This document shows positions 1 through 5,556 of a stretch of DNA of 5,556 nucleotides, piece after piece. The notes below the pieces were generated by a model. The model was given only the letters and a program-made list of their open reading frames with translations. It was not told where the DNA came from and made no database searches. The position numbers were made by a program, and so were the translations under genes. Each line of letters starts with the position of its first letter. Positions within the stretch are counted from its first letter, which is position 1. Source of the stretch: Actinomycetes bacterium (GTDB taxonomy: Bacteria; Actinomycetota; Acidimicrobiia; Acidimicrobiales; Bog-793); NCBI GenBank assembly GCA_021823365.1, contig JAKAOD010000237.1:1-5556 (forward strand). The letters run 5' to 3'.

Positions 1-120
1 GTCCCAACCCGGCATCGCCAGCACCAGCTGGACATCGCTGATGTGGCGCTCGAGGAAGGCCGCTTCGCAGTAGGCGAAGTAGAGCTCCCACCGGCGTTGG
101 AACCGTTCGTCGAAGCCGAG
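1..120 (-). other. C-terminal tail of a cyclopropane-fatty-acyl-phospholipid synthase, in frame with the truncated ene-reductase
   Basis: From about Leu171 the frame reads LGFDERFQRRWELYFAYCEA (171-190) and then AFLERHISDVQLVLAMPGWD to the edge. The pattern ALGFDERF-x2-x-W-x-x-Y-x-AYCEA-x-F-x-x-R-x-x-x-x-VQ-x-x-L-x-x-P is the highly conserved last ~40 residues of CFA/mycolic-acid-type SAM-dependent methyltransferases, normally preceded by ~380 residues that are absent here. The family's natural end is within a few residues of the window edge. The tail has no catalytic residues of its own. It is either the remnant of a CFA synthase joined by recombination or an assembly chimera. Confidence 0.75.
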
Positions 121-630
121 CGCGCGTGCCAAGGCCGCGCCCTTCGCGAAGTCCGCGATGGTCGCCTCGATGCCGGCGTCGGTGAGCTCTGCCGGCTCGC
201 AGCGCGAGTAGCGGCTGTAGACGGCCGAGGGCGCGACCGGCCGATGCCCGAAGGCCTCGGGAAAGGCGTAGCGGCCGGCATGGAAGAGCTGGAGGGCGAT
301 CAGGCCTGCAGCGCCGTGGACCGCGTCGGCGACCCGGCCGAGGCGGGCGAGGTCGGGCTCTCGCGAGAGGACGCAGTAGCTTCGACCTCCCGCGCCGACC
401 TCGCTGATCGCCGCCCCCCCGGTCACGACGAGCCCCGCCCCGCCCCTCACCCGCTCGAGGTAGAAGGCGGCGAGCGCCTGCCCGTCGTCGTCGAGATGCT
501 CGCGACCGAGGTGCATCGCCCCCATCACCACCCGGTGCGGGAGCTCGAGCGTCCCGATCCTCCCCGGGGACCACAGCCGGCCGGGGTCCGCCGCCGAAGG
601 CGGCTCGCGCCCTCCGGCCTCCTCAGGCAT
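1..630 (-). CDS. Old Yellow Enzyme / 2,4-dienoyl-CoA reductase family flavoprotein (AnsM/PlmM-like), truncated and joined in frame to a foreign tail
   Basis: Starting from ATG at 630, 210 codons are open to the left window edge. Residues ~20-174 are the N-terminal half of an FMN-dependent TIM-barrel ene-reductase: IGTLELPHRVVMGAM (strand 1, 25-39), FYLERVRGGAGLVVT (second strand region), LQLFHAGRY (113-121, the QLxHAGR flavin-site motif), PVAPSAV (131-137) and the helix ELTDAGIEATIADFAKGAA leading to ALGFD (170-174). At this point a normal family member continues with G-V-E-x-H/M-G-S/A-E/H-G-Y and another ~200-450 residues. Here it instead becomes ERFQRRWELYFAYCEA, which is not an ene-reductase sequence. 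Active-site residues on strands 4-8, the FMN phosphate site and any Fe-S or NAD(P)H domain are therefore absent. Position in the operon suggests the intact gene would be the dienoyl-CoA reductase of the CHC cassette. As written the product should not be functional. Confidence 0.75.
   Translation of the reverse strand, partial: MPEEAGGREPPSAADPGRLWSPGRIGTLELPHRVVMGAMHLGREHLDDDGQALAAFYLERVRGGAGLVVTGGAAISEVGAGGRSYCVLSREPDLARLGRVADAVHGAAGLIALQLFHAGRYAFPEAFGHRPVAPSAVYSRYSRCEPAELTDAGIEATIADFAKGAALARALGFDERFQRRWELYFAYCEAAFLERHISDVQLVLAMPGWD
623..630 (-). other. ATGCCTGA overlap, enoyl reductase to flavin reductase gene
   Basis: The ATG (630-628) of the last gene lies 8 bases inside the end of the reductase, whose TGA is at 625-623. 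No Shine-Dalgarno sequence is evident, again suggesting coupled translation. Confidence 0.75.
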
Positions 631-1429
631 CCGCCGACAGCGGCGGGGTGAGGTCCTCGACGAAGGGCGGCGCGACGACCGACAGCCCGCCGTCGACGAC
701 GATCGTCTGGCCGGTGAGGTAGGACGAGGCAGTCGAGAGGAGGAACAGGACGACTCCGGCCACCTCCTCGACGGTGCCGAGCCTCCGCTTCGGGACCTTG
801 CGCACGACCGTCTCGAGCGGCGCCATGCCGGGGACCTCGTAGAAGTAGGCCAGCGAGTCGGACTCGATGAGCCCCCCGCTCACGGCGTTGACGTTCACCT
901 CGCGAGGGCCGAGCTCGAGGGCGAGGTACCGAACCCACGCCTCGATGGCCGCCTTCGCCGAGCCGAGGTTGGCGTAGGTGGGGAACGCCCTGGCGCTCCC
1001 GTAGCTCGACAGGGCGACGATCCGGCCCCCTCCGGTCATCAAGCGGGCCGCGGCCTGGGCCGAGAGCACGAAGGACCGGACGTTCATGGCGAAGGACCGG
1101 TCGAGGTGGTGCTGGCGGAGGTCCAAGGCGTGCTTGAACGAGCTCGCCGCGGCGTTGGCGACGAAGTAGTCGAGCCGTCCGTGCTCGGCGGCCGCTGCGT
1201 CGAAGAGCCGCTCGATCTCCTCGGGCTGCTCGACGTCGGCCTGCACGGGCGTCGCGTGGCCCCCGAGCCGCTCCGCCTCTTCGCAGGTCGCGGCGGCGGC
1301 CTCGACGTCGCGCCTGTAGTTGACGACGACCGCGGCGCCTTCGCGGGCGAGCGACAGCGCGACGGCGCGACCGATCCCCCTCGACGCGCCGGTGATCAGG
1401 GCGACGCGGCCGGAGTGCTCGCCGCTCAC
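623..1429 (-). CDS. chcA: Short-chain dehydrogenase/reductase, ChcA/FabL-like enoyl-thioester reductase
   Basis: A 268-residue SDR with the NAD(P)-binding TGASRGIG (13-20), NYRR after beta-2 (37-40, favouring NADPH), Asp65-Val66, NAA (92-94) and an Asn116 helix. The active site reads SSYGSARAFPTYANLGSAK: Tyr152 is followed by Lys159 with six residues between. This is the Tyr-x6-Lys spacing of enoyl reductases (FabI, FabL), not the Tyr-x3-Lys of ketoreductases. NAVSGG (181-186) and the GQTIVVDGG C-terminus also match FabL. Expected reaction: NAD(P)H-dependent reduction of an alpha,beta-unsaturated thioester. In the CHC pathway ChcA reduces 1-cyclohexenylcarbonyl-CoA to cyclohexanecarboxyl-CoA and is thought to act on earlier enoyl intermediates too. 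The GTG start overlaps the upstream stop and leaves the normal few residues before the Rossmann strand. The symbol rests on family plus synteny; a FabL-type fatty-acid enoyl-ACP reductase is the alternative. Confidence 0.8.
   Translation of the reverse strand: MSGEHSGRVALITGASRGIGRAVALSLAREGAAVVVNYRRDVEAAAATCEEAERLGGHATPVQADVEQPEEIERLFDAAAAEHGRLDYFVANAAASSFKHALDLRQHHLDRSFAMNVRSFVLSAQAAARLMTGGGRIVALSSYGSARAFPTYANLGSAKAAIEAWVRYLALELGPREVNVNAVSGGLIESDSLAYFYEVPGMAPLETVVRKVPKRRLGTVEEVAGVVLFLLSTASSYLTGQTIVVDGGLSVVAPPFVEDLTPPLSADA
1426..1429 (-). other. GTGA stop/start overlap, acyl-CoA dehydrogenase to enoyl reductase gene
   Basis: The reductase begins with GTG overlapping the dehydrogenase TGA. 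No clear Shine-Dalgarno sequence precedes it, so its translation probably depends on re-initiation by ribosomes finishing the upstream gene. Confidence 0.75.
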
Positions 1430-2589
1430 CGGGAGGCCGGGAAGATCGCGCGGGCGATCAGGGCCTTTTGGATCTCGTTCGTCCCCTCCTCGAAACGCTG
1501 CGCGCGGGCGTCGCGATAGACGCGCTCGATCGCGCTCGACTCGAAGAAGCCAATGCCGCCGTGCACCTGGAGGGCTTTGTCGGTGACGCGGGTCAGCATG
1601 TCGACGGCGTGCAGCTTCGCCATCGACGACAGCTCGCCGGTGCGCTCGTCGCCCGCCTCGAAGCTGCGAGCGGCGTGGAGGGCGAGCTGGCGGGACGCCT
1701 CGATGTCGGCGGCGTTCTCGGCGAGGGCGAAGGCGATCGCCTGGCGCTCCGATAGCCGCTTGCCGAAGGTCTCCCGAGACTTCGCGTAGGAGACGGCGAG
1801 CTCCTGGGCTCGACGGGCAAGTCCCACGCAGGTGATCGCTACGGCGATCCGGCTCGGCGCGAGGAACCCGTCGAAGGCGACCTCGAGCCCCTGGCCCTCC
1901 TCGCCGAGGCGGTTGGCGACGGGGACCGGCGAGCGGTCGAAGCGCAGGCGCGCGTGGTCCGTGCCGCGCACGCCCATCGAGCCCGACATCGCCTCGACCG
2001 TCGCCCCTTCGACGTGACGGCCCACCATGAGCGCGACCGTCCCCTCCCGGCCCTTCGTGCCGGCGATCCGGGCGAAGAGGAGCCAGTAGTCGCAGTCCAC
2101 GCCGAAAGTGATGAGGTGCTTCTCGCCGCTCAAGAGGTAGGTGTCGCCGTCGCGGGCGACCTCGCAGCGCAAGTCGGCGCCGCTGCCGGCGCCCGGCTCG
2201 GTCAGCGTGAAGGCGACGCGGATCGCCCCGCTCACCTGGGGGTAGACGAACGCCTCGCGCTGCGCCGGCGTGGCGAGCCGGTCGATGGAGCGCCAGAGCC
2301 CGTTCGTCACGTGGACGATCATCCGCAGCGAGGCGTGCGACATCGCGAAGAGCTCGAGGAGCCGGAGGTAGCCCGGGAAGGGAAGGCCACGCCCGCCGTA
2401 GGCGACCGGGGCGGCGAGCCGCAGGTACCCGCGCTCGCGCAGCTCCGCCCAGAGCCGCGCGGGCACCTTGTTCTCGCGCTCGATCTCGGCGGCGTAGGCC
2501 TCGCCGGGCCCCCGGACGAACTCTTCGACCTCGGCGACGAGCGCCTCGGCGTCCCCCTCGGCTCGGCCCGCGGCGCCCTCACCGCTCAT
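1426..2589 (-). CDS. Acyl-CoA dehydrogenase (AnsL/PlmL-like)
   Basis: A 387-residue flavoprotein, the standard length for a soluble acyl-CoA dehydrogenase. Seen in order: an N-terminal helical domain with YGGRG (64-68); the FAD/substrate motif TEPGAGSGAD (130-139), a variant of the usual TEPxxGSD with two extra residues; the middle beta domain with GVRGTDHARLRF (206-217); the C-terminal helical domain with RETFGK (272-277) and Gln283; QVHGGIGF (341-348); and FEEGTNEIQ near the end, whose Glu368 sits at the catalytic base position of MCAD/SCAD. It should remove alpha and beta hydrogens from an acyl-CoA and pass electrons to ETF. The substrate is not readable from sequence; context suggests a hydroxylated or unsaturated cyclohexane-carboxyl-CoA intermediate. 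The start is the ATG overlapping the upstream stop, with a GGGGAGG 10 bases ahead. The stop overlaps the reductase start. Confidence 0.92.
   Translation of the reverse strand: MSGEGAAGRAEGDAEALVAEVEEFVRGPGEAYAAEIERENKVPARLWAELRERGYLRLAAPVAYGGRGLPFPGYLRLLELFAMSHASLRMIVHVTNGLWRSIDRLATPAQREAFVYPQVSGAIRVAFTLTEPGAGSGADLRCEVARDGDTYLLSGEKHLITFGVDCDYWLLFARIAGTKGREGTVALMVGRHVEGATVEAMSGSMGVRGTDHARLRFDRSPVPVANRLGEEGQGLEVAFDGFLAPSRIAVAITCVGLARRAQELAVSYAKSRETFGKRLSERQAIAFALAENAADIEASRQLALHAARSFEAGDERTGELSSMAKLHAVDMLTRVTDKALQVHGGIGFFESSAIERVYRDARAQRFEEGTNEIQKALIARAIFPASR
2586..2589 (-). other. ATGA stop/start overlap, fusion gene to acyl-CoA dehydrogenase gene
   Basis: The TGA of the EPSP-synthase/ligase gene and the ATG of the dehydrogenase share bases (ATGA), a usual sign of translational coupling within one operon and of fixed stoichiometry. 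Confidence 0.85.
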
Positions 2590-5556
2590 CGTCCACCCGC
2601 CTCCCCACGCGTCTCTTCCTCGACGATCCGCCGCGCCATGTCACGCAGCACGAACTTCTGCACCTTGCCGATCGGGTTGCGCGGCAGCTCGTCCACGACG
2701 ACCAGGCGCTCTGGCCAGTATTGCTTGGCGACCTGCCGGCCGTCGAGGTGGCGCTGCATCTCCGCGAAGTCGAGCCCGGAAGGAGCGACGGCGAACGCGC
2801 AGGCGCGCTCGCCGAGCCGCTCGTCGGGCATCGCGACGACGGCGACCTCCTCGATCGCCGGGTGCTCGTGGAGGAGCTGCTCGATCTCGGCGACCGGCAC
2901 CTTCTCGCCACCCCGGTTGATCACGTCCTTCACCCGGCCGCTGATGCGCACGAAGCCGGCGTCGTCGATCACCGCGAGATCGCCGGACCGGTACCAGCCG
3001 TCCGGCGTCGTCGCCGATGCCGTCCACTCCGGGCGGCCGAGGTAGCCCTCGAACAGGCAGCCGCTTTTCACCTCGAAGTTGCCCTCCTGCCCGGGCGCGA
3101 GGACCTGCCCGTCGTCGTCGGTCACCCGGATGCGCACGCCGGCCAGGGCGCGGCCGTCGGTCCCCCAGACCTTCGCCGGCTCGTCGCCCGGTGCCGACAG
3201 CGTCCCGAGGCAGGTCTCGGTCGTGCCCCAGGCGCCGCAGACGGCGACGTCGAGGGCACGGGTCGCCCGCTCCGCCAGCCCCCGGGGCACCGCCGCCCCG
3301 GTCGCAACGAAGACCCGCAACGCCTGAGGAACAGCTCCGCCTGCGTCGACCGCCTTCACGAGGTCGGCGAGGAACGGCGTCGCGGCCTGGACGAAAGTGC
3401 AGCGGTGGCGCGAGAGCGCGTCGAGCGCGGCGCGGGCGTCCCAGACCGGCTGCAGGACCTGCGGCACCCCGAGGGTGAAGGCGAGCCACATCCCGTAGAG
3501 GAAGCCCGTCTGATGGGCGATCGGGGACGGCACGAAGACGACGTCGGAGGGACCGAGACCGAGGTGGCGCACCTCCATGGCCGCCGCCCTGCTCAAAGAG
3601 TCCGCACGCTGGAGCACGCCCTTCGGCTCCCCCGTCGTCCCCGAGGTGAACAGCAGCTGCGCCAGGTCATGCGGTCCCGGAAGGCGCGCGGCGAGGACCG
3701 CGGCATCTGCCGAGGCGAGGGCGGCCTCGAGCTCCGGCTCGAAGTCGTGCCAGGCGACGCGGCACCCGGGGGCCGGGACCTTCGATTGCGGCGACGCGGC
3801 GTCGACCACGACGACGTGCTCGAGCGACGGGACCTCCTCGGGGGAGCTGACCAGCTCGCCGACCTCGGTGGCGTGGTCCCGGCCGCGGAAGCGCCCGGCG
3901 ACGAACAGGACGCGGGCGCCCGAGCGGGTCAGCATGAACGCCAGCTCCCGGCGCCGGTAGATCGGCATCAACGGGCAGCAGACGGCGCCGGCACGCAGCA
4001 CGCCGAGGGCGATGACGACGAGCTCTGACCAGTTCGGGAGCTGGAAGGCGACCGCCTCGCCCGGCGCGACCCCGAGCGAGGCGAGCATCGTCGCGACGGC
4101 GTCTGCACGCCGATCGAGGTCGCCCCAGGTCACGGCCCGCTCCCCTCGGCCCTCGGACGCCACCTCGACGACCGCGACCTCCTCCGGACGCCGGCGCGCC
4201 GCGCGGCGCGCGAGCTCGACGACGTGGACGCCCCCGCGGCGCCCGGATGCGGCGGGCATCTCCTCAGCGGACCGCCGGCGCCGGGCCGGCGGGACCGTCG
4301 CGCCGAGAGCGGGCGACGGCGCCCGGGCGCCCGCCGAGCCCGGGGGGCGCCGGCTGGCCCTGCCGGACTCGGTCGACATCGGGACGCCGATCCCGTTCAT
4401 CTCCTCGAGGAAGCGCGGGTAGGAGATGCGGTAGGCGCGGGGATAGGTGAGCCGGGATTCGCCCTCCGCCCGCGACGCGGCGACGGCGAGGGCCATGAGC
4501 ACCCGGTGGTCGTTGAACGAGGACAGGTCGGCACCGGCAAGGCGGTCGACGCCGCGGACCACGAGCCGGTCGTGGAGCTGCTCCAGGCGACCGCCCATCC
4601 GGTTGAGCTGGAGCATCGCCGCGACCCGGTCCGACTCTTTCAGGCGGACGTGGGCGATGTTGTCGAGGACCGTCGTGCCCCCGGCGAAGCTCCCGAGGAC
4701 CGAAAGGACCGGCAGCATGTCCGGGACGCTCCGGCAGTCGACGCGGACGCCCGAGAGCTCGCAGCCGTCGTGGCGGACCCGCGCCCAGCCACTCTCCTCG
4801 TCGGCCGCCAGCGGGAGGCCCATCTCGGCGACGATGTCCAGCAGCTCGGCCTCGGGATGGTCGACCTCGGCGGCGCGCCTCGCCGGCAGGCCCCGCAGCA
4901 GCACGTCGGAGGGGTGCAGCGCCGTGGCGGCGAGCCCGAAGGCGGCGGCACCGACGTCAGGAGGGAGCTGCACGCTCGCCGGCCGAGCCGTCTGACCGCC
5001 CTCGACGGCGAAGCGCCGGCCGCCGTCGGCAACCTCGACCTCGAGCCCGAATGCCGCCATCATGCGGATCGTGAGGTCGACATAGCTCCGCTCGTTGAGC
5101 TCGCCTTCCACCTCGATGAGCGACGGGCCCGTGGCGAAGGGCGCGAGCAGCAGCAACCCGGAGATCCACTGCGAGAGCGTCCCCGAGATCCGGACGCGTC
5201 CGCCGCTCGGCCGTCTCGGCCGGACGGCGATCGGCGGGCAACCGGTGGGAGAGTCGAGCTCGACGCCCATCGCCGAGAGCGCCTCGAGCAGCGGCTTGAT
5301 CGGCCGGCGCTGGAAGTAGCGCTGCCCGACGACGCTCACGGGCGCGTCGGCGAGCGAGACCAGGCCGGTGATGAAGTACAGCGTCGTCCCCGAGCTGCCG
5401 ACGGAGACCTCCGGCGTGGTCGGGCGGTAAGGGCCGCCCTCGACGACGAAGCAGTCGCCCTCGACGGCGATGCGCGTGCCGAGCCGGCGCAGCGCCTGGA
5501 TCGTGTAGCGCACGTGGCCGGCGTCGGACAGGCCGTCGATCCTGCTCCTGCCTTCG
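2586..5556 (-). CDS. EPSP-synthase-like / acyl-CoA ligase fusion protein (AnsJK/PlmJK-like), 5' partial
   Basis: One frame stays open from the right window edge (first full codon GAA at 5555) to a TGA at 2588-2586, giving 989 visible residues. A GTG at 5513 is not the true start, because homologous AroA sequence (RSRIDGLSDAGHVRYTIQAL) continues upstream to the edge; about 40 residues including the usual GSKS motif are missing. The first ~390 residues are an enolpyruvyltransferase (AroA) domain, then a ~40-residue Pro/Ala/Arg-rich linker, then ~557 residues of adenylate-forming ligase. It is the first visible gene of the operon and its stop overlaps the next start (ATGA). Family knowledge: an EPSP-synthase homologue beside a CoA ligase, dehydrogenase and enoyl reductase is the arrangement of cyclohexanecarboxyl-CoA biosynthesis. 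Inferred role: processing of the shikimate ring followed by CoA activation, in the cytoplasm. The domain calls are firm; the pathway call rests on gene context and recall of the ans/plm clusters. Confidence 0.85.
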   Translation of the reverse strand, partial: EGRSRIDGLSDAGHVRYTIQALRRLGTRIAVEGDCFVVEGGPYRPTTPEVSVGSSGTTLYFITGLVSLADAPVSVVGQRYFQRRPIKPLLEALSAMGVELDSPTGCPPIAVRPRRPSGGRVRISGTLSQWISGLLLLAPFATGPSLIEVEGELNERSYVDLTIRMMAAFGLEVEVADGGRRFAVEGGQTARPASVQLPPDVGAAAFGLAATALHPSDVLLRGLPARRAAEVDHPEAELLDIVAEMGLPLAADEESGWARVRHDGCELSGVRVDCRSVPDMLPVLSVLGSFAGGTTVLDNIAHVRLKESDRVAAMLQLNRMGGRLEQLHDRLVVRGVDRLAGADLSSFNDHRVLMALAVAASRAEGESRLTYPRAYRISYPRFLEEMNGIGVPMSTESGRASRRPPGSAGARAPSPALGATVPPARRRRSAEEMPAASGRRGGVHVVELARRAARRRPEEVAVVEVASEGRGERAVTWGDLDRRADAVATMLASLGVAPGEAVAFQLPNWSELVVIALGVLRAGAVCCPLMPIYRRRELAFMLTRSGARVLFVAGRFRGRDHATEVGELVSSPEEVPSLEHVVVVDAASPQSKVPAPGCRVAWHDFEPELEAALASADAAVLAARLPGPHDLAQLLFTSGTTGEPKGVLQRADSLSRAAAMEVRHLGLGPSDVVFVPSPIAHQTGFLYGMWLAFTLGVPQVLQPVWDARAALDALSRHRCTFVQAATPFLADLVKAVDAGGAVPQALRVFVATGAAVPRGLAERATRALDVAVCGAWGTTETCLGTLSAPGDEPAKVWGTDGRALAGVRIRVTDDDGQVLAPGQEGNFEVKSGCLFEGYLGRPEWTASATTPDGWYRSGDLAVIDDAGFVRISGRVKDVINRGGEKVPVAEIEQLLHEHPAIEEVAVVAMPDERLGERACAFAVAPSGLDFAEMQRHLDGRQVAKQYWPERLVVVDELPRNPIGKVQKFVLRDMARRIVEEETRGEAGGR
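2589..4259 (-). other. Acyl-CoA ligase (ANL superfamily) domain of the fusion, cyclohexanecarboxylate-CoA-ligase-like
   Basis: A complete adenylate-forming enzyme of about 557 residues, a normal length for a free-standing CoA ligase. Motifs in order: the ATP-binding P-loop FTSGTTGEPKG (3650-3618), WGTTET (A5, 3230-3213), GWYRSGD with the ribose-binding Asp (A7, Asp codon 2981-2979), GRVKDVINRGGEKV (A8 hinge and CoA-face loop), and PRNPIGKVQK with the catalytic Lys (A10, codon 2666-2664). All essential residues are present. The MPDERLGERACAFAV stretch and overall texture resemble medium-chain and alicyclic acid CoA ligases such as cyclohexanecarboxylate-CoA ligase; I judge this by eye only. 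Reaction: acid + ATP + CoA to acyl-CoA + AMP + PPi. Likely substrate, inferred from context, is a shikimate-derived cyclohexene or cyclohexadiene carboxylate. No carrier-protein domain follows, so CoA rather than a tethered phosphopantetheine is the probable acceptor. Confidence 0.85.
2600..2606 (-). promoter_or_regulatory. Probable ribosome binding site of the acyl-CoA dehydrogenase gene
   Basis: On the minus strand GGGGAGG lies 10 bases before the ATG at 2589, inside the last codons of the upstream ligase. It is the only convincing Shine-Dalgarno-like sequence in front of a start in the window and supports the choice of that ATG. Confidence 0.5.
4260..4379 (-). other. Low-complexity interdomain linker of the fusion
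   Basis: About 40 codons between the last AroA helix and the first ligase helix encode Ser, Pro, Ala, Gly and Arg with almost no aliphatic content; it starts at the Met of GVPMSTES and ends at RRRRSAEE. There is no stop codon, so a ribosome finishing the AroA domain must continue into the ligase. An internal ATG at 4259-4257 is preceded by GAGGAG with no spacer, too close for a good ribosome binding site, so separate initiation of the ligase is possible but not favoured. The segment is probably disordered and flexible. Confidence 0.7.
4380..5556 (-). other. EPSP-synthase (AroA-family) domain of the fusion, N-terminus cut by the window edge
   Basis: Motifs seen, with E. coli AroA numbering from my own alignment: GSSGTT loop (5399-5382, residues 93-98), QRRPI with Arg124 (5306-5304), LSQW with Ser170 and Gln171 (5174-5169), Tyr200 (5084-5082), VPD with catalytic Asp313 (4721-4719), KESDR with Lys340, Glu341 and Arg344 (from 4640), and NDHR with Arg386 (from 4514). 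The C-terminus (FLEEMNGIGVPM) is where ordinary EPSP synthases end. The fold and catalytic set are therefore present apart from the missing N-terminal Lys22 region. Several substrate-side residues differ: Arg100 is Tyr, Ser169 is Leu, Ser197 is Glu and Asn336 is His. Ser169 and Ser197 normally bind the phosphate of shikimate-3-phosphate, so I infer a different, perhaps unphosphorylated, shikimate-derived substrate. A housekeeping aroA is the less likely alternative. Confidence 0.85.

Follow-up and report, generated by a model that had tools for sequence, protein, structure and literature searches.

The 5,556-nt stretch of DNA analysed here (contig JAKAOD010000237.1, referred to as the window) is most of an operon of an uncultured actinobacterium, cut at both ends, and we consider it probable, at about three chances in four, that this operon serves the biosynthesis of cyclohexanecarboxyl-CoA (CHC-CoA) and that the CHC-CoA is used for omega-cyclohexyl fatty acids. 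All of its genes lie on the minus strand, and the features of the window, in the order of transcription, are as follows:

2586..5555, minus strand: fused protein with a part like 5-enolpyruvylshikimate-3-phosphate synthase (EPSPS) and a part like cyclohexanecarboxylate-CoA ligase (PlmJK type), 989 aa, open at the window edge, the first 35 aa lying beyond it
1426..2589, minus strand: flavoenzyme of the acyl-CoA dehydrogenase (ACAD) family (PlmL type), 387 aa, overlapping the fusion gene by 4 nt (ATGA)
623..1429, minus strand: enoyl-reductase-type short-chain dehydrogenase/reductase (SDR; FabL/ChcA type), 268 aa, with Y-x6-K, overlapping the dehydrogenase gene by 4 nt (GTGA)
108..630, minus strand: 5' part of a flavoprotein of the old-yellow-enzyme (OYE)/2,4-dienoyl-CoA-reductase type (PlmM type), about 174 aa
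1..107, minus strand: tail that does not belong to the operon, like the C-terminus of a cyclopropane-fatty-acid synthase, in frame; a chimeric or rearranged end

The initial annotation, made from the sequence alone, had read five functions in one overlapping operon, and all five are indeed present on the minus strand, neighbouring genes overlapping by 4, 4 and 8 nt; the EPSPS homologue and the CoA ligase were rightly recognised but share one fused frame, and the flavoprotein, likewise rightly recognised, is cut at about residue 174. From position 5556 down to 108 the window is colinear with L001, the locus of its closest relative (host genome G001, a 2.7-Mb metagenome-assembled genome, MAG), at 85.9% DNA identity over 5,496 columns, and the operon is therefore no chance reading. 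Its assignment to the chc/plm type also held, given that its content and order equal those of plmJK-L-chcA-M in the accessible part of PMC5852498.

We propose the following route. The EPSPS-like domain would act on shikimate rather than on shikimate-3-phosphate (S3P) and help to remove a ring hydroxyl, and the fused ligase would form the CoA thioester. The eliminations and double-bond reductions still needed to reach CHC-CoA would fall to the ACAD-like enzyme, the ChcA-type enoyl reductase and the flavoprotein. In this host the CHC-CoA may enter the ordinary type II fatty-acid synthase (FabH/FabF) and yield omega-cyclohexyl fatty acids. Several known systems can be set beside it. PlmJK is, we presume, an EPSPS-ligase fusion. 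The phoslactomycin clusters (plmJK-plmL-chcA-plmM; lmP1-P4, pnP1-P4) have the same four-gene order and functions, with plmJK listed as one gene, as far as the accessible part of PMC5852498 goes; they differ in their polyketide synthase (PKS), which is found neither in the window nor, by motif, in the 80 related loci described below. The same shikimate-derived starter has been proposed for the omega-cyclohexyl fatty acids of Alicyclobacillus, Sulfobacillus and Curtobacterium (PMC4378227, consulted as an excerpt). One of our loci, L106, has the split arrangement of EPSPS, ligase, ACAD, SDR and OYE, in contrast to the fused form of the window. The ansatrienin genes ansJKLM/chcA have the same functions as the cassette, the CHC ending there on an amino-acid side chain. 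The cassette belongs to the known plmJK-L-chcA-M type and most likely serves fatty-acid synthesis in its host.

How widely the cassette occurs was examined with one genome per species, taking the best 80 of at most 425 loci (an upper bound, some stretches possibly matching through the general ligase motif alone) and mapping their genes with a home-made codon-likelihood caller of open reading frames (ORFs). The order fusion-ACAD-SDR-OYE on one strand was found in 54 of the 80, four of these ending at a contig end; the other 26, some of them also at a contig end, comprise fusion-ACAD-OYE (10), fusion-ACAD-SDR (7), fusion-ACAD (2), fusion-SDR-OYE (1) and the fusion alone (6). The phyla represented are Actinomycetota and Eremiobacterota, and the hosts include Streptomyces, Micromonospora, Streptosporangium, Acidothermus, Arthrobacter, Cellulomonas, Lentzea, Solirubrobacterales and Eremiobacterota. 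In L106, L107 and L108 the EPSPS and the ligase are adjacent genes followed by ACAD and SDR, and in L106 by OYE too.

The fate of the CHC-CoA is best judged from the closest relative. In L001, FabF, acyl carrier protein (ACP), FabG and a FabH end lie on the strand opposite the operon, FabF being 3.2 kb from the operon end; of the two kinds of flanking gene that the initial annotation had wished to see sought, fatty-acid synthase genes are thus near the operon in this relative and PKS genes are not. Genome G001 has one ketosynthase above 100 bits, the FabF at L001 20257-21444, in addition to two partial matches of 22-24 bits, and the neighbours on the 58,974-bp contig (L001, L111, L112), read except for bases 20,001-24,570, look mostly like housekeeping genes by eye. 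A search of 12 genomes with PF00109 gave no match above 100 bits in a frame longer than 600 aa in 11 of them, the twelfth, G011, having one of 2721 aa; weak partial matches occur in frames of 651-832 aa in G001, G010 and G023. In the 80 loci the PKS motif used was absent from every ORF longer than 900 aa. On these ketosynthase and PKS-motif searches, and for these hosts at least, a modular PKS is unlikely and the obvious consumer is the fatty-acid synthase; a modular PKS cluster was accordingly rejected as the setting of the operon. The literature, consulted in excerpts, fits in part: cyclohexyl-C17:0 may be present in the genus Herbiconiux (PMC10011130), and at least six EPSPS-part matches among the 120 listed are named Herbiconiux; a title cited in PMC5118839 concerns Curtobacterium with omega-cyclohexyl fatty acids, and a partial fusion, P0243, among the matches listed for the EPSPS part is named Curtobacterium; and in the asukamycin producer omega-cyclohexyl acids derived from CHC-CoA make up 3.1% of the fatty acids (PMC4147253).

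Several observations weigh against the fatty-acid reading. Its destination is taken from a relative, a MAG whose completeness is not stated. Herbiconiux daphne has a CHC-type EPSPS match (P0198), yet in the accessible part of PMC10011130 cyclohexyl acids are not among the major components of this species and of the three other new species described there. The curated NCBIfam cut-offs are missed by the ligase (488 of 792 bits), the ACAD (233 of 640) and the SDR (253 of 328), and the cut-off of the aroA model TIGR01356 is passed by a fusion in 28 of 28 genomes, so that this model gives no separation from AroA. The 80 loci were retained for their best match to the full fusion, which makes its uniformity partly a matter of selection and leaves split forms under-represented. 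The likeness to plm and ans lies in gene order and described functions rather than in alignment to characterised PlmJK, AnsJ/K and ChcA, and among the 120 matches listed each for the fusion, the EPSPS part and the flavoprotein no protein is named PlmJK, AnsJ or ChcA. Finally, the Streptosporangium cassette (L004) adjoins FabI, a ketoacyl-ACP synthase (KAS), a 551-aa ketosynthase (KS)-type protein, an aminotransferase and a PaaA-like protein, which gives it the look of a natural-product cluster, and because of this setting we think that destinations differ between hosts. These neighbours, at L004 6888-9938 and 16958-20973, also include an ORF without family match and a small ORF that looks ACP-like by eye, with no model match.

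The Streptosporangium locus leads to the alternative that has survived best, namely that CHC-CoA, or a partly reduced cyclohexene- or cyclohexadiene-carboxyl-CoA, primes the synthesis of a polyketide or of some other secondary metabolite instead of membrane fatty acids. It gains from the fact that the homologous named cassette belongs to phoslactomycin-type clusters, that Microbispora and Micromonospora share upstream genes with Streptosporangium, and that a KAS stands directly beside the core in 30 of the 80 loci, accompanied in six by a second ligase. The missing PKS motif, and the closest relative with its single strong ketosynthase beside ACP and FabG among mostly housekeeping-looking neighbours, speak the other way, and we regard this alternative as unlikely for the window.

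The operon could also be read as a catabolic one, of the bad or ali kind, which degrades cyclohexanecarboxylate or shikimate and feeds central metabolism, and it is the family matches of the individual enzymes that bear on this. Among 111 NCBIfam families matched, the best for the ligase part is TIGR03208, cyclohexanecarboxylate-CoA ligase, and the top seven matches of this part among plasmid proteins (39.9-43.7% identity) include five annotated as AliA or cyclohexanecarboxylate-CoA ligase, the best of all (43.7%) under the latter name, and two without annotation. The ACAD, which has the Pfam Acyl-CoA_dh domains, matches acryloyl-CoA reductase best (232.6 of 640 bits) and cyclohexane-1-carbonyl-CoA dehydrogenase next (184.9 of 650), and its PlmL-type assignment stands at the family level only. 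The aliA/aliB pathway thus has its ligase and acyl-CoA dehydrogenase families in common with the operon, but the catabolic models TIGR03208, TIGR03207 and NF043006 are all matched far below their curated cut-offs (488 of 792, 133 of 575 and 185 of 650 bits), and ali degradation was rejected on the first two of these, the AliA and AliB equivalogs. To our knowledge, no EPSPS-like domain is part of the aliA/aliB pathway; together with the two reductases such an enzyme would point in the reductive, biosynthetic direction. Moreover, none of 72,556 plasmid records holds 80% of the fusion in one place (E 1e-40), which also led us to reject a plasmid origin. A catabolic role is, in our opinion, very improbable.

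The motif EEGTNE[IV] is present in 71 of 73 ACAD homologues. The best NCBIfam model for the SDR is the FabL enoyl reductase (252.9 bits, cut-off 328), and the SDRs of related operons have Y-x6-K in 57 of 61 cases and Y-x3-K in none, neither of the patterns used being found in four. The flavoproteins of the relatives have a median length of 682 aa and carry CxxCxxxC in 66 of 66 homologues, that of L001 showing Oxidored_FMN and Pyr_redox_2 domains; of its own flavoprotein the window retains about 174 residues only.

The fused protein is a single continuous ORF with PF00275 at residues 1-386, PF00501 at 450-839 and PF13193 at 890-964, and its 1024-aa database copy (P0005) has 35 extra N-terminal residues and a single substitution within the 989 shared aa. 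All three domains are present in 120 of the 120 protein relatives listed, out of 851 at E 0.001. In the AlphaFold model of P0005 (pLDDT 78.8, pTM 0.48) the EPSPS part is predicted with confidence and the ligase part with less certainty, and confidence is low in the linker at 432-476; Foldseek matched the model to E. coli EPSPS (1g6s; target-normalised TM 0.87) and to acyl-AMP ligases such as CahJ. The initial annotation had itself named housekeeping AroA and beta-oxidation enzymes as what these proteins might prove to be, and this was not borne out. The EPSPS parts form a clade apart, and each of the 28 host genomes searched has a separate AroA that scores above the fusion (in G005 this AroA is truncated at a contig end). 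The tree comprised 70 sequences, namely 30 of 59 extracted fusions, 17 database hits, three split forms, P0005, one unfused paralogue and 18 AroA. Under midpoint rooting the CHC type is one clade with a support of 0.869, and on average it shares 28% identity with the AroA from those genomes.

Residues were compared in the numbering of P0005, aligned to 1g6s, over all 80 fusions (positions 22-27 being covered in 74) and over 18 AroA from 17 host genomes, a nineteenth sequence fetched having been set aside as CHC-type. In the fusions K22, R27, R119 (E. coli R124), Q164 (Q171), Y193 (Y200) and D314 (D313) are retained, as are K341 (K340), E342 (E341), R345 (R344), H385 and R386. E. coli S23, on the other hand, is Y in 74 of the 74 covered fusions, and Y95 (E. 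coli R100), L162, E190 (S197) and I412 (K411) are found in 80 of 80. The S169-S170-Q171 motif has lost one serine, L162 standing opposite S169 in one alignment and opposite a gap in that with 1g6s. The AroA have S at 23 in 17 of the 17 covered, R at 95 in all 18, S at 162 in 17 (T in one), S at 190 in 15 (T in three) and K at 412 in 13 (V in three, T in two); position 412 alone is therefore not diagnostic, five of the 18 AroA lacking the K. Position 337 (E. coli N336) carries H in all 80 fusions, yet nine of the 18 AroA have H there as well. The contacts by which membership in AroA was judged, S23, S169, S197 and K411, are thus replaced by Y, L, E and I. Of these we take S23, S169 and S197 to be S3P contacts, S169 and S197 presumably holding its 3-phosphate. 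Consequently, the 3-phosphate site appears to have been rebuilt, which would fit a substrate without that phosphate, and the PEP (phosphoenolpyruvate) site appears partly kept, K22, R124 and K411 being glyphosate/PEP contacts of EPSPS in the accessible part of PMC3411725.

A further alternative would make the EPSPS domain no more than an additional EPSP synthase of the aromatic pathway, such as a glyphosate-tolerant copy, set beside acyl-CoA genes by chance. This is hardly credible: the PF00275 match, the retained positions K22, R27, R124, D313, E341, R344, H385 and R386 and the passing of TIGR01356 by the relatives would suit it, but in the 80 retained loci the domain forms one protein with the ligase, and in L106, L107 and L108 it directly adjoins it, the K411 position is I in every fusion (even if five AroA also lack K), and the clade is separate. 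A housekeeping AroA was rejected likewise, on the separate AroA of the 28 genomes and on the four residues changed alike in 80 of 80 fusions.

Beyond the window itself, the KAS beside the core deserves attention. Within the 32-member KAS cluster, 16 sequences are 57-63% identical to the KAS of L113 and come from Acidothermus, Streptomyces, Solirubrobacterales and Streptosporangiaceae; the other 16, including the L001 FabF and Eremiobacterota, are 33-40% identical. Four genomes chosen for their SDR-less operon (G021, G022, G023, G025) have a ChcA-like SDR (60-61%) elsewhere in the genome; in all four a second acyl-CoA ligase and a KAS come after this SDR on its strand, the KAS being 61-64% identical to its best match in the cluster:

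L113 7495-11303, L114 5303-9068, L115 6017-9782, L116 6693-10476: second locus of Arthrobacter/Cellulomonas, with ChcA-like SDR, second ligase and dedicated KAS

The six Streptomyces loci with a second ligase (about 63%) have it after the KAS. No ChcA match at 1e-40 was found in G002 and G003, whose operons stop after the ACAD. We tentatively suggest, as a possibility that may well prove wrong, that a large and for the most part overlooked group of bacteria without modular PKS runs a dedicated alicyclic-lipid module, made up of the CHC-CoA cassette and a FabF-type ketosynthase of its own, joined by a second ligase in Streptomyces, Arthrobacter and Cellulomonas. In this module the EPSPS-like domain would be a repurposed shikimate-binding enzyme with its 3-phosphate pocket replaced, doing the first dehydration of the pathway.

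In the literature searched, whose coverage was partial, so that these are weak negatives, we found no description of the function of the EPSPS-ligase fusion, nor any of how widely the non-PKS setting extends, of the KAS and ligase that accompany the cassette or of the residue signature; the last three would be what is new here. If the reading is true, omega-cyclohexyl lipids, known as characteristic of the acid- and heat-loving Alicyclobacillus, are to be expected in numerous ordinary actinobacteria of soil as well as in Eremiobacterota. With its fixed residue pattern, the EPSPS-like domain allows a direct test of the way in which the first step from shikimate proceeds, and the dedicated ketosynthase is a candidate tool for making ring-ended fatty acids.

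The low-numbered end of the window is of another origin than the operon. As read, the flavoprotein ORF runs from 630 to 1 but is OYE-like up to residue 174 only; in the 65 loci with an OYE match the matches all end by that residue (best-match ends at 174 in 57, at 173 in six and at 149 in two). A 16-bp stretch at window positions 123-108 is common to L001, whose match stops there, and positions 107-1 are unrelated to the L001 sequence. The same 107 bp match positions 242-271 of the 273 of the Pfam CMAS model (E=0.0024, below the family cut-off) and the cyclopropane-fatty-acid synthase-like PDB entry 5z9o (E=0.049). This foreign end is either a misassembly or a real rearrangement. Among the 120 matches listed for the flavoprotein there is no intact copy from the host itself, the best being 99% identical to that of L001 and the next 62%.

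Among 60 genomes sampled from the family of G027, the host of L071 (Homoserinimonas), 10 have a CHC-type EPSPS, nine in frames of 991-1219 aa and one in a frame of 469 aa; for genomes sampled from its phylum the figure is five of 246 (E 1e-60), G027 itself being counted in both. Outside the phyla of the other loci, five proteins named Steroidobacteraceae (P0151, P0175, P0179, P0209, P0219) are CHC-type EPSPS that stand alone, with a length of about 430 aa. In eight Arthrobacter loci (L053, L055, L059, L064, L065, L066, L076, L080) fusion-ACAD-OYE sits between S10-type ribosomal-protein genes and two elongation-factor genes, an unusual setting for a secondary-metabolism cassette. In the split locus L107 a luciferase-like monooxygenase (2777-3793) follows the SDR in the position expected of the OYE flavoprotein, and L062 and L063, from Streptomyces albus and S. 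xiaopingdaonensis, are extra fusion copies without the other operon genes and with neighbours in common.

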